Assembly: GCF_031624635.1 (NCBI RefSeq) | Contig: NZ_JAMQOQ010000006.1 | Coordinates: 186,001-250,000 of the forward strand | Reading direction: 5' to 3' | Source: Halogeometricum sp. S3BR5-2 | Lineage (GTDB): Archaea; Halobacteriota; Halobacteria; Halobacteriales; Haloferacaceae | DNA length: 64,000 nucleotides | Part shown: one piece after another, positions 10,489 to 39,050 of the stretch | Layout of the letters: each line of letters starts with the position of its first letter | How positions within the stretch are numbered: the stretch's first letter is position 1 | Notes under the pieces: generated by a model | The model's input: only the letters and a program-made list of their open reading frames with translations | Told to the model about the DNA's origin: nothing | Databases searched by the model: none | Position numbers and translations under genes: made by a program

Positions 10489-11082
10489 ATGGTTCGCGTC
10501 GACGACTCAGGAGACGTCACAAAGTGCTGGCTCTCCCCAGATGAGCTATCGGCTCTCGAACGGGCCGCTGGGAAAGACGGCTGGGAGCGAGAGATCGCAG
10601 TGCAACTGATGGGCCGCTGTGGTCTTCGAGCGTCCGAAGTGAGCTACCCCGGTGATGACTATCTTCGCTACTCCGAAGACGGCAGTGTGTGGCTGTTCGA
10701 GGTCCGCGGGAAAAACACGAAGGGAGGCGACCGCAAGGTACGAGATGCCTGGATGCCCGACGACGTCGCTGACGATGTCCACAAATACAGCCGTGAGCGG
10801 CAGCTGGATCCATCGGAGGCGTGGGTCGATGTGAGTACACCATCGGTTCGTCGATGGGTGAAAGAAGCAGCACACGCGATTGCTGACGACCTCGACTCGC
10901 CACGTTGGCGGTCTGTCTCCTCACACGACCTCAGACGCTCGTGGGCGACGTACCATCTCGTTGAGCGCCAGGTCGACGTTCGGACGATGATGAGCATCGG
11001 TGGCTGGTCCGGCTACTCCGCGATCGAGCCGTACCTCGCAGAGCCAACGGAGGCTCGGATTGGAGATGCAATGAGTACATAG
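10489..11082 (+). CDS. Tyrosine recombinase, catalytic domain only
   Basis: The 197-residue product consists of a catalytic domain alone. All key residues are present: R47 in CGLRASEV, K75 in RGKNTKGGDR, H146-x-x-R149 in SSHDLRRSWA, W173 in GGWSGYS and nucleophile Y182 in EPYLAEPT. The N-terminal core-binding domain of full-length integrases is missing, and no upstream remnant of one is seen. It ends 64 bases before brxA and reads in the same direction. It could be a resolvase/invertase of the defence locus or a second mobility gene. Confidence 0.8.
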   Translation: MVRVDDSGDVTKCWLSPDELSALERAAGKDGWEREIAVQLMGRCGLRASEVSYPGDDYLRYSEDGSVWLFEVRGKNTKGGDRKVRDAWMPDDVADDVHKYSRERQLDPSEAWVDVSTPSVRRWVKEAAHAIADDLDSPRWRSVSSHDLRRSWATYHLVERQVDVRTMMSIGGWSGYSAIEPYLAEPTEARIGDAMST

Positions 11083-11146: not shown

Positions 11147-11986
11147 ATGAACCTCGCATCTGACGGAGGCGTCTCTCCTCTTCCGTCACTGTCTCGCCAG
11201 CTGTCTCCAGGGGACGTGAATATGGATCTGACTATGTGTGGTCTGCTTGTTGAGCGAGCCGAGGAACTCGCACGACTCTACGCCGAGTACGGAAACTGGA
11301 ACGAAGTCAAAGAGATCTGGTTCGACGAACGACTATCGAACCGAAGCACACGGGACAGCTCTCAAAAAATATACCGTGTGCTGACGTCGCGGTTCAAGAA
11401 CGCTCCCACGGCGCTCCCGAATCCGAGTATTCTGCCAGCGATATTCGACGAGTGCCAGACGACTCGCGACAAAGCACAGATCCTCTATCTCTACCTGATT
11501 TCAGACGATTCGCTCGTTCGGTACGTCGTTCACGGATACATCGCCCGCTTCGCAGAAGGCAAGCTGGATCCGCTTGACTTCTCGAACGAGACGCTTGTCG
11601 ATATTCTCACTCGGCTCGAGTACTCTGACGGAGATTCCTTCAACTACGCGGAGTCGACCATCGAACGGTGGTGCGAGGGCTTCCGATCCGTAATGCGCAA
11701 GATCGGTGTGCTCGATGGGCAGCAATCAGTCGTTGGTGTACCCCCGTCGATAGGCGATATCTCGTTGCTCGTCGCGATGGACTATTCATACGAGAGCGAC
11801 GACGATGAGTGGCTCACTGCGCCGCGCGGGTTACTCTATCTCTTCCAGCCTGAGAACCGTTGGGAAGAGCTCTTCGACCGAGTTGCGAGCACCGACGCAT
11901 GGGAGTATCTCGAACTGCACGGCGACCTCAACGTACGTCCCAGTGATGAGCCCTACTTGTGGGCACACGATGGAGGTGACAGCTAA
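11147..11986 (+). CDS. brxA: BrxA (DUF1819) BREX protein
   Basis: The 279-residue protein has the BrxA pattern: LLVERAEELARLYAEYGNW near the start, KIYRVLTSRFKNAPTALP, a helical middle (AQILYLYLISDDSLVRYVVH) and TIERWCEGFRSVMRKIGVLD. BrxA has a NusB-like fold and binds DNA; it is a standard BREX component with an unclear mechanistic role. An internal ATG at 11,222 would give the shorter form seen in some relatives, but the promoter position favours 11,147. The stop codon overlaps the next ATG (TAATG), so it is translationally coupled to brxC1. Confidence 0.8.
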   Translation: MNLASDGGVSPLPSLSRQLSPGDVNMDLTMCGLLVERAEELARLYAEYGNWNEVKEIWFDERLSNRSTRDSSQKIYRVLTSRFKNAPTALPNPSILPAIFDECQTTRDKAQILYLYLISDDSLVRYVVHGYIARFAEGKLDPLDFSNETLVDILTRLEYSDGDSFNYAESTIERWCEGFRSVMRKIGVLDGQQSVVGVPPSIGDISLLVAMDYSYESDDDEWLTAPRGLLYLFQPENRWEELFDRVASTDAWEYLELHGDLNVRPSDEPYLWAHDGGDS

Positions 11987-14900
11987 TGGTCGACGCGAAC
12001 TGGTTTGACGACCTCCCAGACGACTTCGAGGAGTCTGTTCGTATCGACCGGGACGAGCAAGACCACCGCCAGCGGGCGATCCGATCGTATCATATGACTG
12101 CCGACTCCCGTCGGTTTATCGAGGACTTCGTCGACCGAATGCTCGGACAGGCAGACGACATGCGAACGGGATCGAACTACTGGCTCTACGGCTACTACGG
12201 AAGTGGGAAGAGCCACCTGCTGACCGTCCTCGATGGGCTGCTGGACACCGATTGGCTCGGTGGACAACAGGATGCAGTCTGGTCAAATCTCGTCCAGGCG
12301 TCCGGTGACGAGGAGTTCGAGCAACTCAGCGACCATTGGCAAGCGATTCACGACGAGTACTATGTCATTCCAGTCTCGGTCAACCTGTTGAAGTACCAGG
12401 GACAAAAGCAGCGGAGCTTCAGTGAGATCGTTCTCAGGCACGCCCACCAGGACGCAGATCTGACGGGCGTTGATGACGGCATCTCAGAAGGGCTGTCCTC
12501 GCAACTCGACGTCGCCTACTTCGAGAAGTGGTTCCGAACGACAGACGCGTGGTCCGATCGGCAGACTCGCGCTGAAGCTGCGCTCGATGATGTGACAACT
12601 GCGGCCAGCGATTACAACTGGCAATCGGACAGCCTCTGGAAGGACGTCCAGAGCTATGGTGTACTGGCAGACGTCGTGCTGCCCAAGCTCTTCGAGGAAG
12701 TCAACGAGACACGCGACGGGTATACAGACCTGCAACCGTCCGACATCGACCCAGAGGAAGTCGTAAGCAGGCTGGAAGAGCTACGGGCCGAGCGGCAGGC
12801 AGAGCTGGGGAAACCAGTTAAGCTCGTGTTGCTGCTCGACGAGGTCAGCCTCTTCATCGGGACCGACTTCGAGCGACTGACCGAACTCCAGACACTCGCC
12901 GAGAACGTCGACGACATCGGCGACGGCGACATCCAGTTAGTCGCGACCGCACAGGCGAAGATCGAGGACGTCCAGCCGAAGTTCGCTGCACACGGTGCGG
13001 ACTTCAGTATCGTCAAGGACCGATTCCCCCACCGCTATCAGCTCCCCAGCAAGCACGTCGGCGATATCGCGAAGCGCCGTCTATTCGAGAAGTCCGACGT
13101 TGGGGAAGCAGCAGTTCGGGAGGTGCTCGACAACGCGTCGGTGAAGCCGACTGAGTCGCTGGTCTACAACGAGATCAAGCAGAACACGAAACCACCACTC
13201 GACAGCATCGACGACGGGGAACTCGTTGAGTTCTATCCGTTCCTCCCGTACCACGCTCCACTGTTCCTCGAGATTCTGTTTAATCTCCGCCAGGAGGCCA
13301 GTGACCCGGCGAAGTCAATATTCTCGGGCACGGCCCGAGCCATTCTCGCGCTCATGCACAGCCTCCTACAGAAATGGGTCGACGAGGGGGAGGGCGACCA
13401 GGTTATCACGCTCGTCGATTTCTACGAGTTGGTGAAGCCGGAGCTCAGGGAGATACTCAAATCGGACATGCGCGTCATCGAGGGCTCCGAGGCGAGCCGA
13501 GGAATCAAAGACGAGGTGGATGACGGGAATCTGGAGGAGTTCGATCTCGACGTTGCGAAAGCCGTTCTCTTACTCCAACACGTGCACGATATCGTCCCGC
13601 TCAACGAGGGGAACATCGCAGTCTCCGTGATGTCGGACCTCAACGGCCGGTCCTGGATCAGTACCCAGAACCGAGTCGAGGAGTCGCTCGGACGCCTCCA
13701 GAAATTCATTCGACCGACCGAAGACGAAACGGGAGCTCGGTACCGCTTCGCGACCCAGGAAGAGCGGATTATCTACGACGACACCGAAGCCAACGAGGAC
13801 GACCCCGACTGGGAGGCGATACTGCAAGCACTGGACGAGCATCTCTGGCACCGGATTACACAGGATCTCTCACTGCCAGAGTCGGTCCCATACGGGGACT
13901 CCGGTGACGAGTATCCCGTTGCATATGGATTCCGTCTCGATGGAACCGACTTCGAGACCACTGTCGACGCTGACGGTGGACTGGACGTCTCCATCGAAGT
14001 GCAGGGCGTTCGCCCAGATCACACCCCCGAAAACGGTGACGAGGAGACTCTCTACTGGACAATAGATACGGACGGACTGGACGACCTCCGGAAGCATCTC
14101 GGTAAATGGTGGGCACTCCGTGACGCGATTTCGACACACAATGCACCGCCAGCTGTGGAACGAGACCTCGAGCAGCGTGCCAGTGCTGTTCGGAGTAAGC
14201 TCGTCAGTGCGATGCAGAGCGGTTCGTACACGGTGAAAGACCGAACGGATATCAGCGGTATCTCCAAGGCTGTCCAGACCGCCGTCGACGTCGGATACCC
14301 CGACGACTTCCATCCGATGATGCTGCAGGTGACCGACGATCGCTTGCAGGAACTGGCGGAGTTCTCGACTGGCGACCCACTTCCTGCGTGGGCGCACACG
14401 ATTCAGGTACCATCGTCCGATCCGTCTGCAAGCCAAGGGAAGAAGTCGATTCAGCGTAACGTGATGTCACTCACGGGCCGACAGCTGAAAGGCCGCGATG
14501 ACGGCCTCAATATGAATACCGTCCTCGACGGAATCACTGGGAAGAAGCCGTTCTACGATGACGCTCGTCCGGCACTCTGTGCGATCATCTGGGGGTTCTG
14601 TCAAGAGGGCCGATTGGTCCCTGTCGACGAAGACGGGAATACACTGGAGAACTCGGCTGTTCTCGATCAAGAGCAGCTCTCGACGACGAGACTGAAGCTG
14701 CTCCCGCGTGAGCCAATCGGGAAGCTCCTCGAAGAAGGTGGCTTCAAGCAGACGACGGAGACGGTCGCAAATGGACTCATCCACCTGCAGGAAGCGAACC
14801 AGCAGTTACGATCGTCGCTCATTGGACTCCAAGAGGATGTCCAGTTAGTCGTCGATACTGACGTTCACTCGGGAGCTGTCGCTGGACTCCTGAACGCACT

Positions 14901-15705
14901 TATCGAGGAATTGTCCGATCGTATCACCGCCACTGCTGATCGGTTGTCCGTCGTGAGGTCACAGGGCGACGGGCTCGGAGACGCGATCGAACAGACGAAC
15001 AACGTACAGGAGTGGTTCGACGAAGTGAAAGACGTCTGGAACCGTCGGATCAGGTCTCTGTACCGGTTCGACGCGCACCTCACGGTGGGCGACGATCGGT
15101 TCGAGTGGGTTGACGAGGAAGCGCTATCGGCCGTCACTGCACAACGCGATGCGCTCGAAACCTTCGATGGGAGCTGGTGGACGACAGACGGATGGAAGGC
15201 GCTCGTCGCAGAGACCACGACTGGGCTGAGCAAGGAGTTCCAGCGCTCGTGGAACGCCTACGTCGACCAGCAAGGGCTCACTGACCTCGTCGAGCGTATC
15301 GATGGTCATCCGTGGGTCATCCCAGCAACGGAGCTTCCGACAGGTGTGCAGGTCGCGATGGAACGCGAGTACATCACGCCGCTGCGAGAGATACAGCGAT
15401 GGTACGAGACGATCGATCAAGTTGTCGCATCGCTCGCTTCAGACGGCGAGGATACACTGGTCTCGGCTGCTGATGATGTCTCCGACGTAGATCCGCTATC
15501 CACAGCGACAGAGTATGATATGGACGAGTTAGCGTCCAGGCTCGACCGACTCACCGCAATCGTCGGTGACCGGACGCCCGATGAAGTCGAGCAGATCGGC
15601 GTACTTCCGGATGACCGTCAGAGCATCGACCGACACCTCGAACGTCTCGTCGAGCGTCGAGAACTGGACATCGATGTGACGGAGTCGGGGGTGATCATCC
15701 GATGA
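11986..15705 (+). CDS. brxC: BrxC/PglY-type P-loop ATPase, first copy
   Basis: The 1,239-residue protein has a Walker A motif at residues 69-76 (GYYGSGKS) and a Walker B near residues 280-290 (LVLLLDEVSLFIG). A long helical region follows, as in the BrxC/PglY (DUF6079) family of BREX ATPases. BrxC forms the large ATP-driven core that works with BrxB and PglZ in blocking phage DNA replication. This copy differs clearly from the second one in its N-terminal region and motifs, so the two are old paralogues and not a recent duplication. It overlaps brxB by four bases (ATGA). Confidence 0.8.
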   Translation: MVDANWFDDLPDDFEESVRIDRDEQDHRQRAIRSYHMTADSRRFIEDFVDRMLGQADDMRTGSNYWLYGYYGSGKSHLLTVLDGLLDTDWLGGQQDAVWSNLVQASGDEEFEQLSDHWQAIHDEYYVIPVSVNLLKYQGQKQRSFSEIVLRHAHQDADLTGVDDGISEGLSSQLDVAYFEKWFRTTDAWSDRQTRAEAALDDVTTAASDYNWQSDSLWKDVQSYGVLADVVLPKLFEEVNETRDGYTDLQPSDIDPEEVVSRLEELRAERQAELGKPVKLVLLLDEVSLFIGTDFERLTELQTLAENVDDIGDGDIQLVATAQAKIEDVQPKFAAHGADFSIVKDRFPHRYQLPSKHVGDIAKRRLFEKSDVGEAAVREVLDNASVKPTESLVYNEIKQNTKPPLDSIDDGELVEFYPFLPYHAPLFLEILFNLRQEASDPAKSIFSGTARAILALMHSLLQKWVDEGEGDQVITLVDFYELVKPELREILKSDMRVIEGSEASRGIKDEVDDGNLEEFDLDVAKAVLLLQHVHDIVPLNEGNIAVSVMSDLNGRSWISTQNRVEESLGRLQKFIRPTEDETGARYRFATQEERIIYDDTEANEDDPDWEAILQALDEHLWHRITQDLSLPESVPYGDSGDEYPVAYGFRLDGTDFETTVDADGGLDVSIEVQGVRPDHTPENGDEETLYWTIDTDGLDDLRKHLGKWWALRDAISTHNAPPAVERDLEQRASAVRSKLVSAMQSGSYTVKDRTDISGISKAVQTAVDVGYPDDFHPMMLQVTDDRLQELAEFSTGDPLPAWAHTIQVPSSDPSASQGKKSIQRNVMSLTGRQLKGRDDGLNMNTVLDGITGKKPFYDDARPALCAIIWGFCQEGRLVPVDEDGNTLENSAVLDQEQLSTTRLKLLPREPIGKLLEEGGFKQTTETVANGLIHLQEANQQLRSSLIGLQEDVQLVVDTDVHSGAVAGLLNALIEELSDRITATADRLSVVRSQGDGLGDAIEQTNNVQEWFDEVKDVWNRRIRSLYRFDAHLTVGDDRFEWVDEEALSAVTAQRDALETFDGSWWTTDGWKALVAETTTGLSKEFQRSWNAYVDQQGLTDLVERIDGHPWVIPATELPTGVQVAMEREYITPLREIQRWYETIDQVVASLASDGEDTLVSAADDVSDVDPLSTATEYDMDELASRLDRLTAIVGDRTPDEVEQIGVLPDDRQSIDRHLERLVERRELDIDVTESGVIIR

Positions 15706-16292
15706 CCGGCACACCGTACCGTGCGTTCAAGGAGAAGCTCTGTACGTTCGCTGAAGGCCAGGCGGGTATCCGAAACCCGTTCGTTATTGTGGCCGTCGAA
15801 CCCGAAATCGAACATCAAACTGTTGACCGACTCAGTGGTTGGGCGACAGGGTCTGACGAGCCACCAAGCATTGATGAAGACATCTCTATCCAACCGATCT
15901 GGCTCGACGAACTGCTTCCGCAGACCAAGGTGTATAATCTGTGCGTTGCACTCGGGAGCGAGACGAGCCCGGAACGCATCGAGGACACGATGCAGGATCG
16001 GCTCGCCGAAGAGCTCGTCCAAGAGATGGTCGAGAACGAGATCGACGAAGAGCATCTGAAACAACAGAACCACGTCGTCCTGCTCCTCAATATCGGGAGT
16101 CTCTACCCGTTTACACGTGCCTCTGAACTCTTCGACGAACTCGACCGTCGGAACGTCAGATCGACCATCGGGATTCCGTACCCTGGCGATGACGTCGGCG
16201 GGAAGTTGAGCTTCTTCGACGGAGATTCACGACATTACTACCCGGCGCACCAGATCCCGGGTCCGATTACAGAGAAACACCTCCAACAATGA
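15702..16292 (+). CDS. brxB: BrxB (DUF1788) BREX protein
   Basis: This 196-residue protein fits BrxB in size and pattern: NPFVIVAVEPEIEHQTVDRL near the start, then VVLLLNIGSLYPFTRASELF and STIGIPYPGDDVGGKLSFFD, with YYPAHQIPG at the end. BrxB is a small core component of BREX found beside BrxC. Four-base ATGA overlaps on both sides (with brxC1 and brxC2) show tight translational coupling. The position between two BrxC paralogues suggests it works with one or both; this is inference. Confidence 0.8.
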   Translation: MTGTPYRAFKEKLCTFAEGQAGIRNPFVIVAVEPEIEHQTVDRLSGWATGSDEPPSIDEDISIQPIWLDELLPQTKVYNLCVALGSETSPERIEDTMQDRLAEELVQEMVENEIDEEHLKQQNHVVLLLNIGSLYPFTRASELFDELDRRNVRSTIGIPYPGDDVGGKLSFFDGDSRHYYPAHQIPGPITEKHLQQ

Positions 16293-19200
16293 GTATCAGC
16301 AATCTATTCCGCAGCGACCCGACCCGACAGCTCGAAGAAGTCCAGAAGGTCAACGCCCGTGAACGGGCAGAAACCGACGTCGTTGAGTTCCACGAGACGG
16401 AGAGCGCAAAGCGCGTCCTCACTGAACTGGGGAAAATCATAGAAAATCCAGGAACTCAAGAACGTTTCTTGTATGTTAACGCAACCTTCGGCTCAGGGAA
16501 GACTCACCTGCTGAAACTTATCGGTCTCGTCGTCGATACCGAGTCCGAGTTCGCTCATCTGGGAACCGAACTCGCTGAGCAGTGGCCTGGGTTCGACAAC
16601 CTCACCCAGTCGATCGACGCCTCACACGTCGAGCGTCTCAAACCGGTTTTCCTGAATCTCCTCGACCGGGACGCGTCGAAGGAACCACCGCTCCCGTTCC
16701 TCATCTTCGAGGCGATTGGACGCGAACTCGGCTATCCGACCGATCCCAACTGGCTGCTCGAGTGGGCCTGGACCGTCGATATGGAGTACGACGGCGTCTG
16801 GGATGCGCTCCAGACCACCGAGTATGATGGGCAGACGTTTGAGGGTGTGCTCGAAGAGCGTGCCTCGCTGCGGCGATGGCTCTACGAGGCACTCCCAGCA
16901 CTGTCGGAGACGACAGGGACCGAGCTCGAAACTAGTGATGGCGCGAAGGCATCCATCGAGCGGGCCGAAGACGAGGTCGATCCTGGGTCGTTCAATCCTA
17001 AGGAACTGGTTGAACGTGTGGAGACGGTAACCGACGCCCTGAACGAGGAGGGGCCGAACACCGAGCTCTTCCTCGGGCTAGACGAGGTCGCGCTGTTCGT
17101 CGGCGACAGCAGGCACCGATATCGTGAATTCGAGGAGACGATGGAAGCGCTCCAAAATGGTCCGAATCCAGTCGTCATGACGACCGGTCAGTACCCGCTG
17201 CCAGACACGCGTGAAAAACTCATCGGTGAGGTGAACGATGACCACTGGACCCACCAGCAGGTGCGGCTAGAAGGCACAGACACGGAGATTATCGTCCGGA
17301 AACGCTGGCTGCAGAAAGACGGTGCAGGCAGTTCTCGAGTCTCCTCGCTCATCTCATCGATGCCGGACCTCTCGCTGAAGGCGTATTCACCAGTCGGGAG
17401 TGCTGATCCTGATGCGGTCGAGTCCTACCCGTTCCGCGAGTACGACTTGACGCTGTTGCGGAAGGTGATGCAGGAGCTGATCACGCAAGGCCGAGCGACC
17501 GAGCGTGACTACATCCAGGGCCGTGCGTTGCTCGTCCTGGTGCGGTCGCTGTTCACGAAGTTCGGCTGGGCTGATGCGGAGGAGGGAGCCCTCGTCACGT
17601 GGAACGAACTGTTCGACCTGCTCGTTGAGGAGACGACCTATGTGCCGCTGTGGGTTCAGGAGATGCTCGAGAACACGCTAATTCCGACCTTCGATGGGAA
17701 CGAGGATGCGTGGGAAGTCCACGTCTCGAAGGCGCTGTACCTGCTGAACCAGACGCCTGCAGTCCCGGCGACGCCGGAGAACCTCGGGCGGCTGATGCTC
17801 GACGACGTGAACGCCTCGGTTGACCAGCGCGTCGAGGAAACCAAATCGGCACTCAACACGCTCGTCGATAAGCGGAAGGTGCTCACGGAGACCAACGACA
17901 AGGGCGACGAGGTGTACACACTCGTCTCGGAGGAACAGGAGAGTATCCTCAGTCGGGCACAGACGAAAGCCGAGCAGATATCGCCACACCAGCTCTCTGC
18001 CTGGCTGGAGACACGACTCCGGGAGAGCGACGACTTCTTCAGGAGCGACAACAGCCTGCACGAGGCCGACGTTGGCGACGAGCGGCTCGTTCCGCTCCGG
18101 TACGAGTACTCCATCCTCGATCCAGTGGGCAGAGCGCCGACCACGGAGTACGATGCCGTCCGAATTCGCGTCCTCGCCGATGACGCCGATACGGTCTCGG
18201 ACCAAGTGGAGACGTGGCAGGACGTGAACGACGGACGCGACGGTGGTGAACACATCCTCATCGCAATCGACGTTCCGGAGACGACACTCGACAGGATTCG
18301 CAACGTTATCGGGATGGGGCAGGTACTGGAAGAAGAGACCGAGAGTCACGAGGAACTCGAACGGGAACACCGGACCGATAAACGGCGGCTCGAGTCGTCC
18401 GTGAGCGATCTCCTCGAAAACGCGTCTGTCCACACAGTCCACGACTACCGAGGTGAGCGACCAAACGTCCTCGACGATGTCGTCGAAGACCAGGTGCAGG
18501 CAGTGTTCGGCTCGACTCGGAGAGTCCTCTCCCGGCCGCTCGTCGAGGTGGACGACGCGAAGGAGCTGGCGAAATTCTTTCGGGGAAGTGGCGACTGGCC
18601 ACTCGCCGATAGAGACGCCGTGATGCTCGGCGTCGATACGTCCAGCACGGAGATTGCGGACACTGGCTGGTGTCGGGAGTTCATCGACGAGTACGAGTCA
18701 CAGACTGCAGTGGACGTCGAAACGCTGCTCCAGCAAACGCGGACGGCGAACGGCGACTACCGAGGGACGCCACAGGAGTCGATTGCGGCGCTGCTCATCA
18801 CGCTCGCAATGTCGAACGAGAAGGTCGCACTCAAGCAGGATACGGACTACGTGACCGATCCAACGGCGATCGGTCGACAGGTCCGGACGAAGGGTGGGCT
18901 CACGTCAATGCAGGTGCGGTTCGGCGTCGACGATGGAATCACTAACCCTAAAGAGGTTCGCAAGATCGTGTCGACGGTCCTTGGCCACGATCCCGAAGGC
19001 AACGACCCAGACATATGGGTTGCCGGGCTCGCCTTGTGGGCCGAAACCAACAGCATCCTCGTCAAGCGGACGTTCAAGGGTGTCACCAGAGAGTTTGATA
19101 TGGATCTTGACGGGCTGGAGTCCATTCTAAAACCGGCCTACAGTGGCGGCGATATCGCCACGTCCGAGTTGGCCGACGACGACGTTCAGTCTGAGGCCGA

Positions 19201-20104
19201 AACCTTCGCAGACGCACGCGACCTCTTCGCTACAGCGGACGGAGGGAAAACGCTCTGGGCGCAGTTTACCGAGACGCTCGAGTTACTGGAGGATCTCTAC
19301 CCCAGTGCGGCGATTACATCGCGGATGCAGACGACAGCTGTCAGTGGGTCTGTTCCGACGAAATCGACGGTCACCTCGCGGCTTGCGAAGGCAATCGAGC
19401 ACCGGGTCGACGAACTATCCAAGCAGTACCGTCGAGTGACAGGTAACGCCACAGACACGACAGACCCCGACGAGATTCGGGAAGAGTTGACGGAGTGGCT
19501 TCGTGAGAACGAGCCGGACGTCAAAGCGCTCCTCGACGACGCTACAGCAACGTTCGATAGCGTCTCGTTTGACGACCTCGAGTTGGTGTTCGGGAGCGCC
19601 TGGAACGGGGATCAGGTCGCCGAGGGTGATCTGGTTGATTCGTCTGTGCGCCAGCAGACCGAGGATTACAAGAAAACTCGAGAACTACTTGAGGGAGAGC
19701 CGAGCCCGTGGTCGAAGCTACAGTCTGCACATGAAGATCTTCGAGCAGAGAACCCAGATTCGCCAACGACCGAGTCGGTTTCTACGGTGCTGGACGCCTC
19801 GCGACCACCGTCGATCCAGCGAGTTCGACGGCTCATTGAGGAAGCGAAGGACCCCAAGCCGCCAGGAGCTGACGACAATTCATGGGCGGAGCTCCAACGT
19901 GTCGCAGAGGATCTCCGACAGGAGCTTCCGAACGCTGCCGTTACCGACGAGGTGACGGGGTTAATCGACGCGGACGACCGACCGACTGATGAACGAGCGA
20001 CGGAACTCCTCGATGAGTCCAAGAAATTGTTGACCCGAATCCGCGAAGTCAGAGAGGCACTGGATGACGTCGAGGACGGCGGTATCGTATTGATCGAAGA
20101 GTAG
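16289..20104 (+). CDS. brxC: BrxC/PglY-type P-loop ATPase, second copy
   Basis: The 1,271-residue protein begins MSISNLFRSDPTRQLEEVQK and has a Walker A at residues 64-72 (NATFGSGKT) and a Walker B at TELFLGLDEVALFVGDS (about residues 256-272). The rest is long, acidic and mostly helical, as in BrxC. Two BrxC/PglY genes in one locus is the hallmark I associate with the haloarchaeal type 5 BREX. Near the C-terminus two similar helical units occur (WSKLQSAHEDLRAENPDSPT and WAELQRVAEDLRQELPNAAV), an internal repeat of about 70 residues. It ends the first operon segment. Confidence 0.85.
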   Translation: MSISNLFRSDPTRQLEEVQKVNARERAETDVVEFHETESAKRVLTELGKIIENPGTQERFLYVNATFGSGKTHLLKLIGLVVDTESEFAHLGTELAEQWPGFDNLTQSIDASHVERLKPVFLNLLDRDASKEPPLPFLIFEAIGRELGYPTDPNWLLEWAWTVDMEYDGVWDALQTTEYDGQTFEGVLEERASLRRWLYEALPALSETTGTELETSDGAKASIERAEDEVDPGSFNPKELVERVETVTDALNEEGPNTELFLGLDEVALFVGDSRHRYREFEETMEALQNGPNPVVMTTGQYPLPDTREKLIGEVNDDHWTHQQVRLEGTDTEIIVRKRWLQKDGAGSSRVSSLISSMPDLSLKAYSPVGSADPDAVESYPFREYDLTLLRKVMQELITQGRATERDYIQGRALLVLVRSLFTKFGWADAEEGALVTWNELFDLLVEETTYVPLWVQEMLENTLIPTFDGNEDAWEVHVSKALYLLNQTPAVPATPENLGRLMLDDVNASVDQRVEETKSALNTLVDKRKVLTETNDKGDEVYTLVSEEQESILSRAQTKAEQISPHQLSAWLETRLRESDDFFRSDNSLHEADVGDERLVPLRYEYSILDPVGRAPTTEYDAVRIRVLADDADTVSDQVETWQDVNDGRDGGEHILIAIDVPETTLDRIRNVIGMGQVLEEETESHEELEREHRTDKRRLESSVSDLLENASVHTVHDYRGERPNVLDDVVEDQVQAVFGSTRRVLSRPLVEVDDAKELAKFFRGSGDWPLADRDAVMLGVDTSSTEIADTGWCREFIDEYESQTAVDVETLLQQTRTANGDYRGTPQESIAALLITLAMSNEKVALKQDTDYVTDPTAIGRQVRTKGGLTSMQVRFGVDDGITNPKEVRKIVSTVLGHDPEGNDPDIWVAGLALWAETNSILVKRTFKGVTREFDMDLDGLESILKPAYSGGDIATSELADDDVQSEAETFADARDLFATADGGKTLWAQFTETLELLEDLYPSAAITSRMQTTAVSGSVPTKSTVTSRLAKAIEHRVDELSKQYRRVTGNATDTTDPDEIREELTEWLRENEPDVKALLDDATATFDSVSFDDLELVFGSAWNGDQVAEGDLVDSSVRQQTEDYKKTRELLEGEPSPWSKLQSAHEDLRAENPDSPTTESVSTVLDASRPPSIQRVRRLIEEAKDPKPPGADDNSWAELQRVAEDLRQELPNAAVTDEVTGLIDADDRPTDERATELLDESKKLLTRIREVREALDDVEDGGIVLIEE

Positions 20105-20181
20105 ACTCACAAGCAGACTCTTGCTGGAGTCTCATTCGTTCTTTCCTAATGCAGGGGTACTGTACAGTCATAGAACAAGTA

Positions 20182-20190
20182 GAATAAAAT
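20182..20190 (+). promoter_or_regulatory. TATA box of the RFC-like gene
   Basis: GAATAAAAT lies about 27-29 bases before the ATG at 20,215. This is the spacing of a leaderless haloarchaeal transcript. Together with a 110-base gap after brxC2 it suggests that the RFC-like gene has its own promoter and is not expressed only by read-through. Confidence 0.5.
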
Positions 20191-20214
20191 GGTTACCCAA
20201 CGCTTCGTCACTTT

Positions 20215-21180
20215 ATGCCGAAGTGGAAACAGACTGAAACTTGGACGGAGAAGTATCGTCCCGATTCGTTCGGGGAGATTGACGGAAACGAGAGTATCAT
20301 ATCTACTTTCCAGAACTATTCCCGAACGGGTGAATTCCCAAACCTGTTGCTCGTAGGTCCTCCTGGGACTGGAAAATCCACAGTCATGAGAATATTATCT
20401 AAGGAGATCCACGGTGCGGAATGGCGCACGCATACGCATATCTTAGATGGAATGGACGTTCGAGGAGTAGACCAAGTTCGTTCGAGAATCTTACCGTTCA
20501 TTAAAACAGACTACAAAGGAGAGGCTCCACGACTACTAGTCATAGAACAGTCAGAGAGTCTAGTAAGAGACGCCCAAATGATGCTTAGACCACTAATGGA
20601 GAGACACACAGACCGGGTTCGAGTCATTCTCACATGTAACGACGTTTCACTAGTCAGTTCTAGCGTTCAGTCGCTCTGCGCAGTCTATCGGTTTTCTCCT
20701 GTGGATCGTGAGATGATCCGCAATCGACTCACAAAGATTGCTCGTAGTGAAGGTGTTTCAGTTACTGATGAGGCTATCGATGCACTCAGCAGAATCGCAG
20801 ATGGGGATCTCCGAAGGGCAATCAACGCGTTACAAGCGGTTGGAACCGCGGACGACGATCGAATCACCGAGTCGGACGTTGACGACACCCTGACCTCTGT
20901 TCGCCCAGATACTGTGAAGAACATGGTATATGCAGCGTTAGCTGGTGATTATGAGGAAGCGGTATCGAAGTTACACGAGTTGCTCTCCGAGGGCGTATCT
21001 GGCAAGGATATTCTCTTTGAAGCCCACAATGTCGCACACAACCTCGAGAACTTCGACGAATCGACTCTCCGTCTAATCAATCAAATCGGCGAGGCAGCAT
21101 ACCGGCTTGATGCAGGAGGTGATGCATCTGTTCAAATTTCGTCGGTGCTTGCAGACGTTGCTCAACAACAAAGTGATTAA
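20215..21180 (+). CDS. Degenerate replication factor C small-subunit paralogue inside BREX
   Basis: The 321-residue protein has the length and order of an archaeal RFC small subunit: WTEKYRPDSFGEIDGNE, Walker A GPPGTGKST (48-56), the RFC box VI-like DVRGVDQVRSRI, sensor 1 TCND (140-143), GDLRRAINALQ and a C-terminal collar domain. Two catalytic features are altered. The Walker B DEAD box reads LLVIEQSE (107-114), losing the metal- and water-activating acids. The SRC arginine finger reads QSLC (152-155). It may therefore bind ATP but should hydrolyse it poorly and not act in trans on a neighbour. GC is near 48 percent in its middle, below the brx genes. It is probably a scaffold, decoy or sliding-clamp contact for BREX; this is inference. 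Confidence 0.8.
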   Translation: MPKWKQTETWTEKYRPDSFGEIDGNESIISTFQNYSRTGEFPNLLLVGPPGTGKSTVMRILSKEIHGAEWRTHTHILDGMDVRGVDQVRSRILPFIKTDYKGEAPRLLVIEQSESLVRDAQMMLRPLMERHTDRVRVILTCNDVSLVSSSVQSLCAVYRFSPVDREMIRNRLTKIARSEGVSVTDEAIDALSRIADGDLRRAINALQAVGTADDDRITESDVDDTLTSVRPDTVKNMVYAALAGDYEEAVSKLHELLSEGVSGKDILFEAHNVAHNLENFDESTLRLINQIGEAAYRLDAGGDASVQISSVLADVAQQQSD

Positions 21181-21209
21181 CCGAAATCGTGATCTTCGTT
21201 CCTGGTAGC

Positions 21210-21219
21210 AATATTAAAG
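21210..21219 (+). promoter_or_regulatory. Possible TATA box for pglX-pglZ
   Basis: CAATATTAAAG lies about 45 bases before the pglX ATG at 21,261, which would leave a short leader of roughly 18 bases. It sits in an 80-base AT-rich gap after the RFC-like gene, so pglX-pglZ may be a separate transcription unit. The evidence is sequence resemblance only. Confidence 0.4.
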
Positions 21220-21260
21220 ACACTCCTGTCAGTTCGTGTTAGCATACTGGATTACATTCT

Positions 21261-24200
21261 ATGGAAGGCGATTCACTCTCTCAGCGAAAGGCGCAACTGG
21301 ACAAGGCCGAACGTGAACATCTCGAAGACATCGTCGAAGATCTCCGTGAACGCGTCGAGGGCAACGTCCGGTTCCAACTGACGCAGAAGGGTCTCGATGA
21401 CGAGCCGGAGGATCTTGAATCGGTGAACGAGGATATGGAGCGGCTCGTCGAAGCAATCGAACTCGAAGTTGTGGACGGTCATACGTGGGACGAGGCGTTC
21501 GAACAGTACGTCACAGGTGTCGGGTATACCATCGTCAATCGCCTTGCAGCGCTGCGCTGTATGGAGGTACGTGACTTCGTCGGCGAGGAGGTCACCGTCT
21601 TCAAAGAGAATGGTCTGACGCCGGCTGCAGAGACGCTCGTCCACGAGGAATTCCTACTGGAAGATGAGGCCATCCTCGAAGCGTATCACAACGCCTGTGA
21701 CGAGTTTGCCGAGGAAATCGAGATTCTCTTCGACCGTTCATCCGCTTACAGTCTTATCGATCCAGATGACGATACCTTCGAGGAACTCTGCGAGAAGCTC
21801 GACTCGGTCCCTGACGAGGTCTGGCGGGCCGACGACGTGCTCGGCTGGGTCTACGAATACTACAACGTCAAACTGCTCGACGACCTCCGGAGGAAAGGCG
21901 ACCGCAAAGGCCTCGACCCTGAGGACGTTCCACCAGCGAACCAGTTCTATACACCTCACTGGGTTGTGCGGATGCTCACTGACAACTCGCTCGGTAAGCT
22001 CTACCTCGAACACACCGGCGAATTGCAAGGTGTCGTCAAGTCCCAGGAAGCGTTCTCTTCGGATGAGCGAAAGAATCGACCACTCTCTCCCGACAAGTCA
22101 CCTGATGTCGCCGATTTTTGCACCTATCTCGTTCCCTCGGAGGAAGAAGGAGAATCGACCGACTTCGAGCACCCGGAGGAGCTTCGCGTCATCGACCCTG
22201 CCTGTGGGAGCGGGCACTTCCTGCTGTATGCGTTCGACGTGCTGGAGCGTATCTGGCGTGCCGAGACGGACCTCTCTGCGGAGGAGATTCCGCGGAAGAT
22301 TCTCCAGCAAAATCTCTACGGCGTCGATCTGGATATGCGGGCCTGCCAGCTCGCGGCGTTCAATCTGTATCTGAAGGGCCGGACCCGCACAGAGGCGGAA
22401 GGTACTGAGGGTTTCGACATGCCTGAAGTTGGTATCGTCTGTGCGGACGCGAAGGTGGCCGATGTCGACGGTGTCGAGGCAGTGTTCGACGAGGTGGCCG
22501 GCGACAACCCGAAGGTTGAGGGCGCCCTCCGCCGAATCCTCGACGCTTTCGAGGAAGTCCACGGGCTCGGGAGCCTGCTTGACGTTCGCGGGACGCTCGG
22601 TGACCTATTTGAGGACGACAGCGATACGGAAGGCGTTCAGATCACGCTCGACGACGATCCGACAGTAGACCACACGCTCGGACAGGTGCTCCACAGTCTG
22701 CGGGAGGCCGTCGAAGAACACCGAGACTCGGACTCGTTCCTAGCACAGGATCTTCGGAGCTTCGTCCGGCTACTGGATATCCTGGCACAGGACTACGACG
22801 TGGCACTGATGAACCCGCCGTATGGTGCACAGAACCGTATGCCGGACGTCGTGCAGTCCTACGTCCGGTCAAAGTTCGACTACCCACCCGAGTTCTACGT
22901 CAACTTCTTCGAAGTCGGGAGCCGGATCGTTCACGACTCCGGTCGCGTCGGGATGCTCATCCCGCACAGTTTCATGTTCAAGAATACCTTCCAGGAGTTC
23001 CGGGAGGACTTCGTCGGAGAACAGGGAGGCTTCGACTTCTTGGCGGAGTTCGGGTACGGTATACTGGACAATGCAATGGTAGGAACCGTGGGGACCGTCG
23101 TGCGAGTCGGTGACAACGAGAGCACCCAGGGGTCCTTCATTCGGTTGCACGATGTCGATAGCTACCAGAAGGAACGAGTGTTCCGAGAGACGGTGTTCGA
23201 ACAGAGCTCGGAAAACGACGTGAAGCGGGTGTTCCACGTTCCCTACGACGAGTTCAAGCACATCCCTCGGACGCCGCTGTGTTACTCCACGCCAGAAGCA
23301 ATACGACGGCTACACGATACGGAAACGAAGCTGGATCCGGACGCTGCCCGAGTGGAGGGTACCAGTCTGGGGACGGCTGCGAAGGGGATGGATACGAACG
23401 ATAATGATCGGTTTATCCGGTACCATTGGGAGGTCGATGGTGACGACCGGTACATCCCGTACGCGAAAGGTGGAACCGACGCCTGGGTGCTTCCGCGTAT
23501 CTCCACGAGCCTGAATTGGGCCTTCGATGGTGACGAACTTCGTCGTGCAGGAGCTGCCCTGAAGAACGAGGAACAGTTCGGAAAAGCGGGGTTGACGTGG
23601 ACGTACGTTAAACGAACGGGCCGTCGGTTCGGCTACTTCCCACCGGGTGGATCGTTCGACGGCACGGGCTGTATGTTCTTCACCGATGCTGTCTCGGACT
23701 GGGTACTCATGGCGATTCTCAACTCAAACCTGTACCACGCGTTATTCCTGTCCCTCACCGTCGAACGTCATTGGCAAGTGGGGGATGTTGGGCGGATGCC
23801 CTGGGTGGAAGACCTCGCCGAACAAGATCAGCTCGCAGAACTAGCCCAGGAGCAGTTCAGGCTGCAATTGGAGAACGAATCCCGAAAGCCGACGAGTCCT
23901 CACTACATTGGGCCAAGACTTCTCCCGAAAACGTATCCGGCTGACTCGGTGTACGAGCATGCTCATGTCGACCATATAACCGAAATCGTGGAGACAGAGA
24001 TGACCGGCGATGCAGCAAATATGAGTATCACGAGCAGGGTTGCGCAGGTGGAGCGGGAGCGGCTTCGTCGTCGGTCCCGGCTGGAGGAACTCTCCGGGGC
24101 GATCGACGAGCACGTGTTCGAAACAGTCGGTGTCTCGCCGGAAACGGAAGCACGGGTTCGCCAAGAGATATTCCTCCGGACGTCGGAATCCCCGGAGGAT

Positions 24201-25580
24201 CGTGAGATCCCAGACCCAGAATCAGTCCCAGAAGTCCCGGACAACGTCGATCGACACGTCAAAGACCTCGTCCATCACTTCGCGATGGAAGTCGTCCGTG
24301 CAGAACCAGACGGCATCATCCCACTCCATTCCACCGGCGGCAAAGCCGATATACTCGACCGAATTATCGACCGCTTCCAGGAGGCTTACGGCAAGCACGC
24401 ATCAGACCGGCTCGCCGAAGTCGACGAGTGTCTCGGTGCAACGGCCGCCGCCGAGGAGGCCTATCCCAATCTCCGGGCGTTCGTCGAGGAGCATCTCTTT
24501 GACTATCACGTCGACAAGATGGAGAGTACGCCGATTCTCTGGAAGCTCACCAGTGAACGCCTCATCGCCGACTCGGCGGGCGAGGGGTTCGCGTGCTTCG
24601 TTGACTACCATAGCCTCGATTCGGGACTCCTAGACCGGCTCGCCACTCAGTACCTCGAACCCAGAAAGGCCGAACTCCGAGAACGCCGGAGCGCCGCGAA
24701 CCGCCGTCGGAGTGACCAGTCCCTCTCAACGAGTGAACAGGCGGAAGCCGCCGAGCAGTACGAGCGCTGTGCGAGCGGACTCAACCAGATCAGCGTCTTC
24801 GAGGACGTGCTTCAGGATCTGGGCAGCACCACCGAACGTGACTTCGGCGACGAGGACCGACAACTCGTTGAGGAACTTGCTCCGAAGGTCGCCACCTTCC
24901 GCGAGGAAACCCGAGAGCGCGTGGAGACGCTGGCGGACCTACGCGAGCGTAACAGTGAAGAGTGGTTTCAGGACACCTTCTCGGACAACTTCTGGAATGC
25001 CGTCGACGAGTGGCGATATGAGTGGAACGACGCCCTCAGCGAACTCGAACGCGCTTGTGAGGAGTACGTCAATCCGTCTGATGAGTCAGTCGAGGCACAC
25101 CTAGCGGACCTGTTCGAGTATTTTAATGACCGACTCAAGGGATCGGACCACTACTCCAGCACGGGCATCCTGTTCATGACCTACTACTTCGAGCGGGAAG
25201 GAGCCGAACTGCTTGACGATGACGGGCAACCGTTCGAGAATCTGAAAGACGAAGAGCGCTTGCTTGCCTCGCTCGCGACCAGTCTTGATGACCCCTCAGT
25301 CGTCGACATGGAGTTCCTCGAAGCGATAGCCGACGAAGAGGGCGTCGAGAACGTCGACAATCTCCTTCCACTGGCAGAGTTCAAAGCATTGGCAGAGGAA
25401 ATCGGCGACCGCTGCCAGACCATCGACAAACGAATTCCCTCCAATTGGACCGACCGCGCACTCTCAGAAATAACGACTGAAGGGTACCAACCGAACCACA
25501 AGCACGGTGTCGAAATCAATATCGCACCCCTCGCAGAGGCCGATATCGTCCCGAAGACGGTGGAGGATGACGTTCTCTAA
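21261..25580 (+). CDS. pglX: PglX BREX adenine-specific DNA methyltransferase
   Basis: This 1,439-residue protein carries an N6-adenine methyltransferase core. Motif I is VIDPACGSGHFLLYAF (about residues 309-325) and the catalytic motif IV is MNPPYGAQN (NPPY at about 518-521). The front has an N-terminal helical domain including ANQFYTPHWVVRMLTDNSLG, and the long C-terminal part probably reads the target site. In BREX, PglX marks host DNA at a non-palindromic site so that unmarked phage DNA is restricted. It is full length, with no frameshift seen. The stop lies two bases before the pglZ start. Confidence 0.9.
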   Translation: MEGDSLSQRKAQLDKAEREHLEDIVEDLRERVEGNVRFQLTQKGLDDEPEDLESVNEDMERLVEAIELEVVDGHTWDEAFEQYVTGVGYTIVNRLAALRCMEVRDFVGEEVTVFKENGLTPAAETLVHEEFLLEDEAILEAYHNACDEFAEEIEILFDRSSAYSLIDPDDDTFEELCEKLDSVPDEVWRADDVLGWVYEYYNVKLLDDLRRKGDRKGLDPEDVPPANQFYTPHWVVRMLTDNSLGKLYLEHTGELQGVVKSQEAFSSDERKNRPLSPDKSPDVADFCTYLVPSEEEGESTDFEHPEELRVIDPACGSGHFLLYAFDVLERIWRAETDLSAEEIPRKILQQNLYGVDLDMRACQLAAFNLYLKGRTRTEAEGTEGFDMPEVGIVCADAKVADVDGVEAVFDEVAGDNPKVEGALRRILDAFEEVHGLGSLLDVRGTLGDLFEDDSDTEGVQITLDDDPTVDHTLGQVLHSLREAVEEHRDSDSFLAQDLRSFVRLLDILAQDYDVALMNPPYGAQNRMPDVVQSYVRSKFDYPPEFYVNFFEVGSRIVHDSGRVGMLIPHSFMFKNTFQEFREDFVGEQGGFDFLAEFGYGILDNAMVGTVGTVVRVGDNESTQGSFIRLHDVDSYQKERVFRETVFEQSSENDVKRVFHVPYDEFKHIPRTPLCYSTPEAIRRLHDTETKLDPDAARVEGTSLGTAAKGMDTNDNDRFIRYHWEVDGDDRYIPYAKGGTDAWVLPRISTSLNWAFDGDELRRAGAALKNEEQFGKAGLTWTYVKRTGRRFGYFPPGGSFDGTGCMFFTDAVSDWVLMAILNSNLYHALFLSLTVERHWQVGDVGRMPWVEDLAEQDQLAELAQEQFRLQLENESRKPTSPHYIGPRLLPKTYPADSVYEHAHVDHITEIVETEMTGDAANMSITSRVAQVERERLRRRSRLEELSGAIDEHVFETVGVSPETEARVRQEIFLRTSESPEDREIPDPESVPEVPDNVDRHVKDLVHHFAMEVVRAEPDGIIPLHSTGGKADILDRIIDRFQEAYGKHASDRLAEVDECLGATAAAEEAYPNLRAFVEEHLFDYHVDKMESTPILWKLTSERLIADSAGEGFACFVDYHSLDSGLLDRLATQYLEPRKAELRERRSAANRRRSDQSLSTSEQAEAAEQYERCASGLNQISVFEDVLQDLGSTTERDFGDEDRQLVEELAPKVATFREETRERVETLADLRERNSEEWFQDTFSDNFWNAVDEWRYEWNDALSELERACEEYVNPSDESVEAHLADLFEYFNDRLKGSDHYSSTGILFMTYYFEREGAELLDDDGQPFENLKDEERLLASLATSLDDPSVVDMEFLEAIADEEGVENVDNLLPLAEFKALAEEIGDRCQTIDKRIPSNWTDRALSEITTEGYQPNHKHGVEINIAPLAEADIVPKTVEDDVL

Positions 25581-25582
25581 GT

Positions 25583-27733
25583 ATGCCAGCGACGAACACC
25601 CTCCCACAGTGCGCCCACGAGGCGATCGAGAGCGCTATCGACGATGCGGCCGACGAGGACCCAGTCATCCTCTGGTGGGACGACGGCGGCTACCTCCGAG
25701 ACATCGTTGAACATGCGAGCACCCAACTCCGCTGTGAGTTCCGTGCCGCCGAGCAGACGCCGTTAGAGCTCCGTGCGGACGCACCACGCAACCGAACCGT
25801 CTGGTACGTACCCCAGCCCAGCAGCGGCGACGTCGACTGGTTCAAGGACGTCGAACACACCGGTGGTGTCGTCGAGCAACACATCGGTAAGCTAGCTGCA
25901 CGCTGCTTCGAAAACGAACGCCTCCAAGCGGCAACGATTCGTACCGCATACAAGGATGCTGAGGACCGCGAGAAGGTAGCCCAAACGCTCTACAAGGAAC
26001 TCAACGGCGAGGGTGGTCTCCCGTCACTCCAGGGTCTCCAGACAAAGATCGTGCTGGACGGCCACGACGATCCCGTGCAGTTCGTCCTCGAACACGGGAC
26101 GCGAAACCTCCCGGATGGCGACGAACTCCTGAAGATTCGTGACTTACTGGTCGACAATGGCGTCAAGGCCGTCGAGGGCGAGTCCGACGTACGAACCATC
26201 GTCGAACGAACACGCCGCTGGGCAGTCGCTGAGTGGCTCGTCGACGAAGGACTGGAGAAGTCGCTGCTTCCGCGGGAGTACCAGCCCGAACCAAGCACGG
26301 GATTCGGTGTGTCCAGACCCGAACTTCGGTCGATGCTGAGCAAGACCGCACAGAAGCGTGAACTGGCGAACGTCTACCTCGATCCGGACCAGCGGTTCTG
26401 GCACGACGTCCTCCGCACCTACGACGAGCCGTGGAAGCTCGTCGATTGTCCGGTCGACGCCTCTCTCGAACACCGACTCTGGGACGAGTGGACCCAGTCG
26501 TTCAACAGCGGAGAGTACGAGACGTGTGTCACCCAGGCGAAGCAGCGTCACGACCGCCTCGAGTCAACCTACGGCGACGTTCCGTGGACGAACGTCTGGG
26601 AGCAGGCCATCGACGTGGCCACCCTCGCGAACGAACTCGCGACCTGGGAAGAGCGTGGCGACACCAGTGACGTCGTCGATCTCTACGGCGATGTCGATGG
26701 GGGGACCTGGCAGATCGACAACGCCGTCTTCAATCTCATCGTCTCTGGCCAACCGGAGACCGGGCTCCCCGAGGAGCATCCGGCGACGGCGACGCTCGAC
26801 GGCCTTCGTTCCTCGTTGACCAAATCGCGGTACCTCGAGTACCTCACTGACCTCGGTGACCTTGTCGTCGACCAGATCAAAGCTGGCTCACCCTTCGTCG
26901 GTGAGAAGCACGCTCACCAGTTCTTCGCCGAGGAGCAGGAGCACCTCCAGAGCGGCCAGAGTGTCGCACTGTTCATCGTCGACGCGCTGCGGTTCGACCT
27001 CGCCCACGAACTCGCCGACTCGATCCGTCGCGAACTTCCCCAGCTCGAAGTCGACGAGAGCACGTGGGTTGGCACGCTCCCATCCGATACCGAATTCGGA
27101 AAGGCCGCGCTCACGCCCGGCAGTAAGTTCAGTTTCAACATCGAACTCCAGGACGGCGAGCTCGTTCCCGAGCGCAACGACCGCAAGATCACGAACCACC
27201 GTCGCCAGACCCTCCTCGAGAACGACGGCTGGAGCTACATCATGCAGGACGCCGAGGACGAGGTGGGCTGGAGCAACACCCGCGTCGCCTACTACTGGAA
27301 CGACATCGACGAGACGGGTGAGAAGGAGCTGACGAATTTCGAGGAGCTGTTTAGCGACCGCATCGAAGCGATCTCAAGCATCATCTGTGAGAAGCTGGAC
27401 AAGGGTGAGTGGGACCGTGCGTACATCCTCTCGGACCACGGCTTCGTCTCATTGCCGAAGCACGTCGATATCGACGATCTCCACCCGCCGGACAACGCCG
27501 AACAGGTGACCCGACGATGGGTTGCTGGAACAGATCTCGATGATGACGCACCAGGCGTCTTGCTCGACGAGGACACCCACCTGGGGTACCTCGACGACGA
27601 TGCGAAAGTCAGTATCCTCGCCGATCCGATCCAGCGCTTCCGCAACCAGGGCCTCCCTGACGCGCGGTTCTACCACGGAGGCGTTCTCCCGCAGGAGTTC
27701 GTGCTGAACTTCGTCACTATCACGCAGGAGTAG
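25583..27733 (+). CDS. pglZ: PglZ BREX alkaline-phosphatase-superfamily protein
   Basis: The 716-residue protein has the PglZ domain of the alkaline phosphatase superfamily. FIVDALRFDLAHELADSI (metal-binding aspartate about residue 467), WVGTLPSDTEFGKAALTPG, and YILSDHGFVSLP (DHG, about residue 618) are present. PglZ is the signature component of all BREX types and has metal-dependent phosphodiesterase or nuclease activity in studied systems. An N-terminal domain of about 450 residues is mostly helical. It is cotranscribed with pglX (2-base gap). A 134-base gap then separates it from the nuclease-brxHII pair. Confidence 0.9.
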   Translation: MPATNTLPQCAHEAIESAIDDAADEDPVILWWDDGGYLRDIVEHASTQLRCEFRAAEQTPLELRADAPRNRTVWYVPQPSSGDVDWFKDVEHTGGVVEQHIGKLAARCFENERLQAATIRTAYKDAEDREKVAQTLYKELNGEGGLPSLQGLQTKIVLDGHDDPVQFVLEHGTRNLPDGDELLKIRDLLVDNGVKAVEGESDVRTIVERTRRWAVAEWLVDEGLEKSLLPREYQPEPSTGFGVSRPELRSMLSKTAQKRELANVYLDPDQRFWHDVLRTYDEPWKLVDCPVDASLEHRLWDEWTQSFNSGEYETCVTQAKQRHDRLESTYGDVPWTNVWEQAIDVATLANELATWEERGDTSDVVDLYGDVDGGTWQIDNAVFNLIVSGQPETGLPEEHPATATLDGLRSSLTKSRYLEYLTDLGDLVVDQIKAGSPFVGEKHAHQFFAEEQEHLQSGQSVALFIVDALRFDLAHELADSIRRELPQLEVDESTWVGTLPSDTEFGKAALTPGSKFSFNIELQDGELVPERNDRKITNHRRQTLLENDGWSYIMQDAEDEVGWSNTRVAYYWNDIDETGEKELTNFEELFSDRIEAISSIICEKLDKGEWDRAYILSDHGFVSLPKHVDIDDLHPPDNAEQVTRRWVAGTDLDDDAPGVLLDEDTHLGYLDDDAKVSILADPIQRFRNQGLPDARFYHGGVLPQEFVLNFVTITQE

Positions 27734-27867: not shown

Positions 27868-28335
27868 ATGAGTCGGAACACCGGTCACGTTGATGGCGAA
27901 TTGGCTGAATTCGCAGTTGCTGCAGATCTCGTTAGGAACGATTGTCGAGTCTCGTACACCCACGGCCAGTACAAATACGACTTGGTCGCAGACAAAGACG
28001 ACGAACTCCTGCGAGTGCAGGTCAAGAAGGCCAACCAGATGAACAAGAAATCCTGGAAATACCGGATATTCACAGACCGATACGAGGCGGGTCAAGTCGA
28101 CATATTTGCTGGCTACGTCGTTCAGGAGGACAAAGTATTCTATGCAACCTTCGATGAGGTCGGCCAAAACGAGTTCAGAGTGAATGCGAAAGGTAGAGAC
28201 GAAATGACGGAGCACAATGCGAGTATCGCGAACATCCTTGACGACTATACTTTCGCTCAAGCACTTTCGAACCTGCATGACCACACTGTGACCCCGGACG
28301 CAGAAGACACGGGACAGAATCCAGACTCGACCTAA
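27868..28335 (+). CDS. PD-(D/E)XK endonuclease of the BREX locus
   Basis: The 155-residue protein has a PD-(D/E)XK-type core: GELAEFAVAADLVRND (E11 or E14), then YKYDLVAD (D38) and LLRVQVKKANQM (Q51-V-K53). The D-x12-QxK form resembles the family of homing-type and intron-associated endonucleases (PF11645-like), in which Gln replaces the usual Glu. The core is followed by a strand-rich segment (DIFAGYVVQEDKVFYATFDE) and a polar tail. Its stop lies 4 bases before brxHII, so the two are one transcript. It could be a BREX effector nuclease or a DNA-end processing factor. I know of no standard BREX gene of this kind. Confidence 0.7.
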   Translation: MSRNTGHVDGELAEFAVAADLVRNDCRVSYTHGQYKYDLVADKDDELLRVQVKKANQMNKKSWKYRIFTDRYEAGQVDIFAGYVVQEDKVFYATFDEVGQNEFRVNAKGRDEMTEHNASIANILDDYTFAQALSNLHDHTVTPDAEDTGQNPDST

Positions 28336-35817: not shown

Positions 35818-35913
35818 GCGTTATCGACTCCCTCTTAGTCAAGATCATACTTCGACTTTGATTGGCCCAGTGGTAAGTATTAGCAAAACAACAGAGTCAA
35901 ACACTGGCAAGAT

Positions 35914-35953
35914 CATCGTCCACGCTATCAATCAGATGCCGTAGTGGACGATG
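35914..35953. terminator. Hairpin after the large winged-helix gene
   Basis: CATCGTCCAC (35,914-35,923) and GTGGACGATG (35,944-35,953) form a perfect 10-bp stem with a 20-base loop. It lies between the stop of the leftward 934-residue gene (35,986) and the start of the leftward SIR2 gene (35,817), so it could end transcription of the former. It might equally be an operator. Confidence 0.35.
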
Positions 35954-35985
35954 CTGGCAGTTGGGGTTCCGCCAGCTCATTATGT

Positions 35986-38977: not shown

Positions 38978-38991
38978 ATGGACTCGCGGGG
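38978..38991. repeat. Right attachment site within tRNA-Ala 3' end
   Basis: ATGGACTCGCGGGG here, covering the discriminator base, acceptor 3' strand and first T-stem bases of tRNA-Ala plus one flanking base, equals 6,919-6,932 in the same orientation. The tRNA reads leftwards, so its 3' end faces the island and it remains intact, as expected after integration into a tRNA 3' end. Confidence 0.6.
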
Positions 38992-39050
38992 ATTTGAACC
39001 CCGGGCCTCTTCCTTGCGAAGGAAGCGATCTGCCACTGATCTACGAGCCC
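38979..39050 (-). tRNA. tRNA-Ala (anticodon CGC)
   Basis: The reverse strand folds into a full cloverleaf of 72 bases: acceptor GGGCTCG with CGAGTCC, D stem GATC/GATC, anticodon arm CTTCC-TTCGCAA-GGAAG with anticodon CGC (reads Ala codon GCG), T arm CGGGG-TTCAAAT-CCCCG, and discriminator A. There is no intron and CCA is not encoded. It is the integration target of the island. Confidence 0.95.

Follow-up and report, generated by a model that had tools for sequence, protein, structure and literature searches.

We found that the junction between brxC2 and pglX in haloarchaeal type-5-like BREX operons is, with good support, an insertion slot for accessory genes, and that in Halogeometricum sp. 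S3BR5-2 this slot holds a single gene, encoding a diverged RFC (clamp-loader) small-subunit homologue in which the motifs for ATP hydrolysis are lost. We regard this gene as a candidate antiviral gene of a new kind. Our preferred, though tentative, reading is that it is a stand-alone accessory defence gene, the product of which would act in parallel to BREX as a non-productive clamp-loader subunit and thereby hinder clamp loading by the virus. No RFC-derived defence gene was found in the defence libraries and literature searched, and in our literature search no publication connected RFC with BREX or with haloarchaeal defence.

In the window, as we call the whole stretch of 64,000 nucleotides that was analyzed, the host BREX operon looks from its sequence like an intact type-5-like system, with the gene order brxA-brxC1-brxB-brxC2-pglX-pglZ-brxHII. 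The genes, all on the plus strand, are brxA (11147..11986; PADLOC BrxA, 2.6e-147), the PglY-like brxC1 (11986..15705; PDLC02474, E=0, full length), brxB (15702..16292; BrxB, 6.3e-108), brxC2 (16289..20104; PDLC02473, E=0, full length), the methyltransferase gene pglX (21261..25580; PDLC02518, E=0, full length), pglZ (25583..27733; PDLC02562, E=0) and the helicase gene brxHII (28340..31249; BrxHII, E=0). The RFC gene lies 110 bp past brxC2 and 80 bp ahead of pglX on the same strand. Thus, the original prediction of an RFC gene between brxC2 and pglX, co-directional and within BREX, is upheld by the full-length PADLOC matches of the BrxC and PglX flanks. By PADLOC models, type 5 BREX of haloarchaea comprises two brxC genes, pglX, pglZ and brxHII; the host operon has all of these, but RFC is not among the recurrent genes of type 5.

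The brxC2 family was present in 62 of 391 haloarchaeal genomes, and 60 other loci were retrieved for comparison of the junction. The genes at the junctions brxA-brxC1, brxC1-brxB and brxB-brxC2 are always separated by 18 bp or less (55-58 loci). Between brxC2 and pglX, 45 of 50 loci have a gap of more than 300 bp, and the median gap is ~2.1 kb, the maximum 7.8 kb; this gap holds 0.5-7.8 kb of cargo in 43 of the 50 and is empty (6-82 bp) in 5, and the GC content of the cargo is lower than that of its flanks in every occupied slot (43/43). The RFC gene shares these features, as it sits at a fixed junction that is empty or differently filled elsewhere and has a lower GC content than its flanks. 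Cargo families at other loci include KwaA/KwaB (Kiwa), CBASS (cyclase, TGT and 2TM effector), AriA/OLD-like ATPase and dGTPase, as well as PDC-S11, PDC-S02, nucleotidyltransferase and PIN/HEPN genes. A PADLOC defence family is found in 18 of the 43 occupied slots, as counted by family membership (representatives were scanned, and the remaining members were placed by blastp clusters); many of these 18 loci are related, so they do not amount to 18 independent events, and a single clade of related loci accounts for a large share of the recognized cargo. Moreover, since many cargo genes are unrecognized, the cargo is not all proven defence. A gene between brxC and pglX is already known for type I BREX, but in the literature searched we found no description of a systematic slot for cargo in the type-5-like BREX of archaea, nor of an RFC homologue as cargo.

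We also noted other features of these loci. Cargo genes without a Pfam or PADLOC match (among loci L065-L124) occur, for example, at L081:10296-12044, L102:10448-12166 and L104:9363-11617, and at L091:9573-10985, which has relatives in L098 and L114; such unmatched cargo genes at this junction are candidates for unknown defence genes. Smaller slots occur after pglX (over 300 bp in 17 of 38 loci) and after pglZ (7 of 20). In the window, an accessory gene for a small PD-(D/E)XK_5 nuclease (27868..28335, plus strand; Pfam PF11645, 1e-14) lies between pglZ and brxHII in such a second, smaller cargo slot, with relatives in only 3 of the 60 other loci (L101, L102 and L108). In L096 and L117, pglX matches only over a short part, which suggests that these two genes are broken.

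The borders of the insert in the window were defined by alignment with the empty slots L089 and L093 and with slots holding other cargo, L098 (Halalkalirubrum salinum), L082 and L088 (Halobellus salinus). The insert is bounded on the left by the brxC2 stop codon and on the right by a conserved 53-bp leader or promoter region of pglX (21208..21260, plus strand), in which 47-50 of 53 bases are identical in L089, L093 and L098 (42-50 of 53 if L082 and L088 are included), compared to a background mean of 17.5 (sd 2.2). All sequence upstream of this leader is unrelated among the compared slots, so the border is sharp. Thus, the insert extends from 20105 to 21207 (plus strand; 1,103 bp, GC 0.48) and contains one gene. 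The leader is conserved inside each of two BREX sub-clades (AACATTAAAG...CTGTCAGT...TAGCATAC and ATGGACAATCTTCAAGACA...), and its 42-bp core is unique within the window. This conservation goes beyond the needs of a TATA box, and perhaps marks a regulator site or an insertion target.

The RFC ORF has a GC content of 0.488 and a GC3 of 0.469, compared to 0.58-0.60 and ~0.70 for the flanking brx genes. The original proposal that the gene is a later addition was supported. The proposal that it has a promoter of its own is possible, based on a TATA-like AATAAAAT (20183..20190, plus strand) that we read by eye ~28 bp ahead of the ATG.

Several lines of evidence confirmed that the gene encodes an RFC small-subunit homologue, as had been proposed. 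The ORF (20215..21180, plus strand) starts with ATG and specifies a protein of 321 aa that is a full-length RFCS homologue, with intact AAA+, lid and collar domains. It matches Pfam Rep_fac_C (1.7e-14) as well as AAA, and its closest PDB relative is the Pyrococcus furiosus RFCS (1iqp, 1.2e-65), with homology over the whole length, spanning all three domains. An AlphaFold2 model built from 25 sequences (mean pLDDT 87) predicts an RFC fold with AAA+, lid and collar domains; RFC small subunits were top-ranked in a Foldseek search with this model, with 1iqp the best PDB match, and the modeled AAA+ and lid domains superpose on 2chg with an rmsd of 2.4 A. The full-length TM score of ~0.65 is lower, probably due to the orientation of the domains.

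We compared the protein with 62 archaeal RFCS/RfcA sequences, considering as near-invariant those columns with 97% or more identity, and found that its losses are concentrated in the machinery of ATP hydrolysis. The original reading of an intact Walker A, with DEAD replaced by EQSE and SRC by SLC, was confirmed by this alignment: Walker A is GPPGTGKST (residues 48-56; 20356..20382), the Walker B box is EQSE (residues 111-114; 20545..20556), and the arginine-finger motif is SLC (residues 153-155; 20671..20679), all on the plus strand. The Walker B D and E and the finger R are kept in all 62 archaeal sequences. Among viral RFC relatives, the arginine is kept in 80 of 80 and the DE in all except one (EEGD). 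Since these residues are so constant in both groups, their loss here is not due to chance. Altogether, 36 of the 98 near-invariant columns are altered, 27 of 54 in the ATP-hydrolysis core after the P-loop compared to 9 of 44 elsewhere (Fisher p=0.003). The losses are N78D (the glutamate-switch Asn), D111E and E112Q (Walker B), R126P (central helix) and R154L (arginine finger), and the residues kept are K54 (P-loop), R83 (the switch Arg, or DNA-switch Arg), N142 (sensor 1) and R200 (sensor 2); the N78D and R126P losses and the retention of N142 and R200 had been overlooked in the original prediction. Thus, the protein resembles archaeal RFCS/RfcA (1iqp of P. furiosus, 2chq of A. fulgidus) in its P-loop, sensor 1 Asn, sensor 2 Arg and collar, but differs from them in Walker B, the switch Asn, SRC and the central-helix Arg. 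None of the 62 archaeal sequences has its Walker B, switch-Asn or SRC changes, and the loss of Walker B together with SRC in an RfcA-type protein was seen in no other sequence compared. From these residues, the protein probably still binds ATP, and the simplest reading is that it would neither hydrolyze ATP nor complete the ATP site of its neighbor.

Dead clamp-loader subunits are in themselves ordinary. In the host, Walker B is dead in RfcC and SRC is missing from RfcB, as is the case for haloarchaeal RfcC (Walker B DN) and RfcB, although each of these has lost only one function and is 26-28% identical to the protein in the window. The SRC and central-helix motifs are missing from the position-A subunits Rfc1 and Rad24 (PMC9010301), and hydrolysis by the A-position subunit of a clamp loader is dispensable (PMC3331839). 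Thus, the pattern of losses is not in itself proof of a poison subunit. In yeast RFC, a Walker B Glu-to-Gln change reduces PCNA and DNA binding in addition to hydrolysis (PMC3740443), which weakens a model in which the protein is locked on the clamp.

We considered the origin of this gene. The host genome has its own RfcA, RfcC and RfcB, of which RfcA is 37% identical to the protein. Searches of 391 genomes of the class and 170 genomes of the family yielded no orthologue, the next best matches (~40% identity) being cellular RfcA. Thus, the homologues without a BREX link that the original prediction had named as evidence against it did not appear. A protein scan of contigs from 84,980 species, the reach of which is limited to close relatives, found no relative. 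In a tree, the protein is on a very long branch (4.1 changes per column) at the base of RFCS, a placement that is unsure and that we do not trust. A recent duplication of the cellular RfcA, the other outcome named as adverse, is ruled out by the 37% identity and by the branch outside the haloarchaeal RfcA clade. Descent from a known viral RFC is unsupported, since identity to the 80 viral loci retained does not exceed 34%, below the 37-42% of cellular sequences; an unsampled virus is a possible source. The GC of 0.488 and the lower acidity point to a foreign or mobile source: the fractions of DE and KR are 0.159 and 0.112, compared to 0.202 and 0.098 in the host RfcA and 0.171 and 0.113 in the RFC of the halovirus HVTV-1. 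The RFCs of HVTV-1 and HCTV-1 are likewise of the RFCS type and have a comparable amino-acid make-up, but are ~28% identical to the protein, less than cellular RfcA, and retain DEAD and SRC.

Several apparent relatives were discarded. Second RFC paralogues in G007, G021, G134 and G310 proved to be RfcA split by long in-frame, intein-like inserts; an apparent extra RFC was two adjacent pieces in G296 and a repeat of one contig sequence in G264; and a viral match (L064, 39% over 49 residues) was due to chance. We also note that a plasmid of Salinibaculum sp. KK48 (L175) carries RFC large and small subunits with RadB, and that this small subunit is 38% identical to the protein in the window.

The original proposal that the RFC is part of a BREX type and connects BREX with replication forks was not sustained. 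The gene is present in 1 of 61 related loci, and the junction holds unrelated defence genes elsewhere; thus, closeness to BREX is no evidence of joint action. The other role originally suggested, that of an anti-RFC decoy, may still apply. That the protein is a core or type-defining BREX component would fit its strand and its spacing from brxC2 and pglX, but with an RFC in 0 of 60 other loci and with empty slots in existence, we consider this extremely improbable and reject it.

The mechanism that we propose, in which we have limited confidence, begins with a slot that takes accessory, largely antiviral genes and that here holds one diverged RFC small subunit. This subunit would keep ATP binding, be unable to hydrolyze ATP or complete a neighbor's ATP site, and join or titrate a virus-directed RFC/PCNA loader, such that viral DNA synthesis would be impaired in parallel with BREX. 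Clamp loading is a conceivable target, since some haloviruses (HVTV-1 and HCTV-1) have RFCS genes of their own, in HVTV-1 close to the DNA polymerase gene. We infer ATP binding, the partner (viral or host RFC/PCNA), the antiviral effect and the independence from BREX from association and from the residue pattern, in a protein found in a single genome and without an orthologue. What suggests an antiviral role is the company in the slot and two precedents. BrxU, which like the RFC gene is an extra gene outside the BREX core at a brxC-pglX junction, defends by itself, independently of BREX, but it is an unrelated GmrSD-like nuclease, a type IV enzyme of proven activity in a bacterial type I BREX (PMC8565348). 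BxaP, likewise a rare single-gene insert within a BREX operon, also defends independently of BREX inside type 3 BREX, but it is a different protein at another junction, with its defence established by experiment (PMC10799925). A poison subunit would also endanger replication of the host, unless it is repressed, weakly expressed or virus-specific. We entertain with considerable doubt a stronger version, in which evolution has made an antiviral weapon of a clamp-loader subunit: a non-hydrolyzing RFC mimic, carried as swappable BREX cargo, would interfere with viral (or shared) clamp loading by poisoning or titrating it.

The main rival, which we consider rather doubtful but take seriously, is that a diverged RFC gene came into the slot as a passenger, from a donor such as a virus or plasmid, and has no present role, its motif losses being decay. 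The many altered invariant positions, the long branch, the occurrence in a single genome, and the low GC and reduced acidity, near the make-up of halovirus RFC, would all be expected of a passenger; however, the ORF is complete, the ATP-binding, sensor and collar residues are kept, the losses are focused rather than spread, and recognized defence genes are frequent in the slot. We think it unlikely that the protein is a specialized subunit that occupies the end (A) position, as Rfc1 or Rad24 does, in an alternative complex for clamp loading or unloading, and that it directs the RFC small subunits to a particular clamp or DNA structure, perhaps in the service of BREX. Its lack of SRC and of one central-helix Arg (R154L and R126P) with retention of the P-loop K54 is as seen in such subunits, for which hydrolysis is dispensable, and the host RfcB also lacks SRC; but at 321 aa it has no A' extension or extra domain, the model stopping at the collar, and it is absent from all 60 other BREX loci and accompanied in the insert by no gene for a special clamp. 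Less likely again is a sensor or guard, an ATP-bound RFC-like switch that would recognize a viral clamp or the primer-template DNA of a virus and, in response, activate BREX or some other effector: the P-loop, the sensors and the DNA-switch Arg R83 are kept, but the insert has no effector domain or partner gene, and related BREX loci lack the protein.

The slot, with its mapped borders, is a precise site of exchange of accessory defence genes in archaeal BREX operons, which places unknown genes found there among the ranked candidates for novel antiviral systems. In particular, the RFC homologue allows a clear test of whether clamp loading is targeted by archaeal immunity.

Two further regions of the window were noted. 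The left edge of the BREX locus carries genes for two tyrosine integrases (6959-7969, minus strand; 10489-11082, plus strand) and an HNH protein (8564-9247, minus strand), which suggest a mobile island. At 34084-38790, a SIR2_2 protein (PADLOC PDC-S65, 7e-175) is encoded beside a 934-aa helix-turn-helix protein, adjoining a tRNA-Ala gene (38979-39050), and these two genes are a probable further defence pair.
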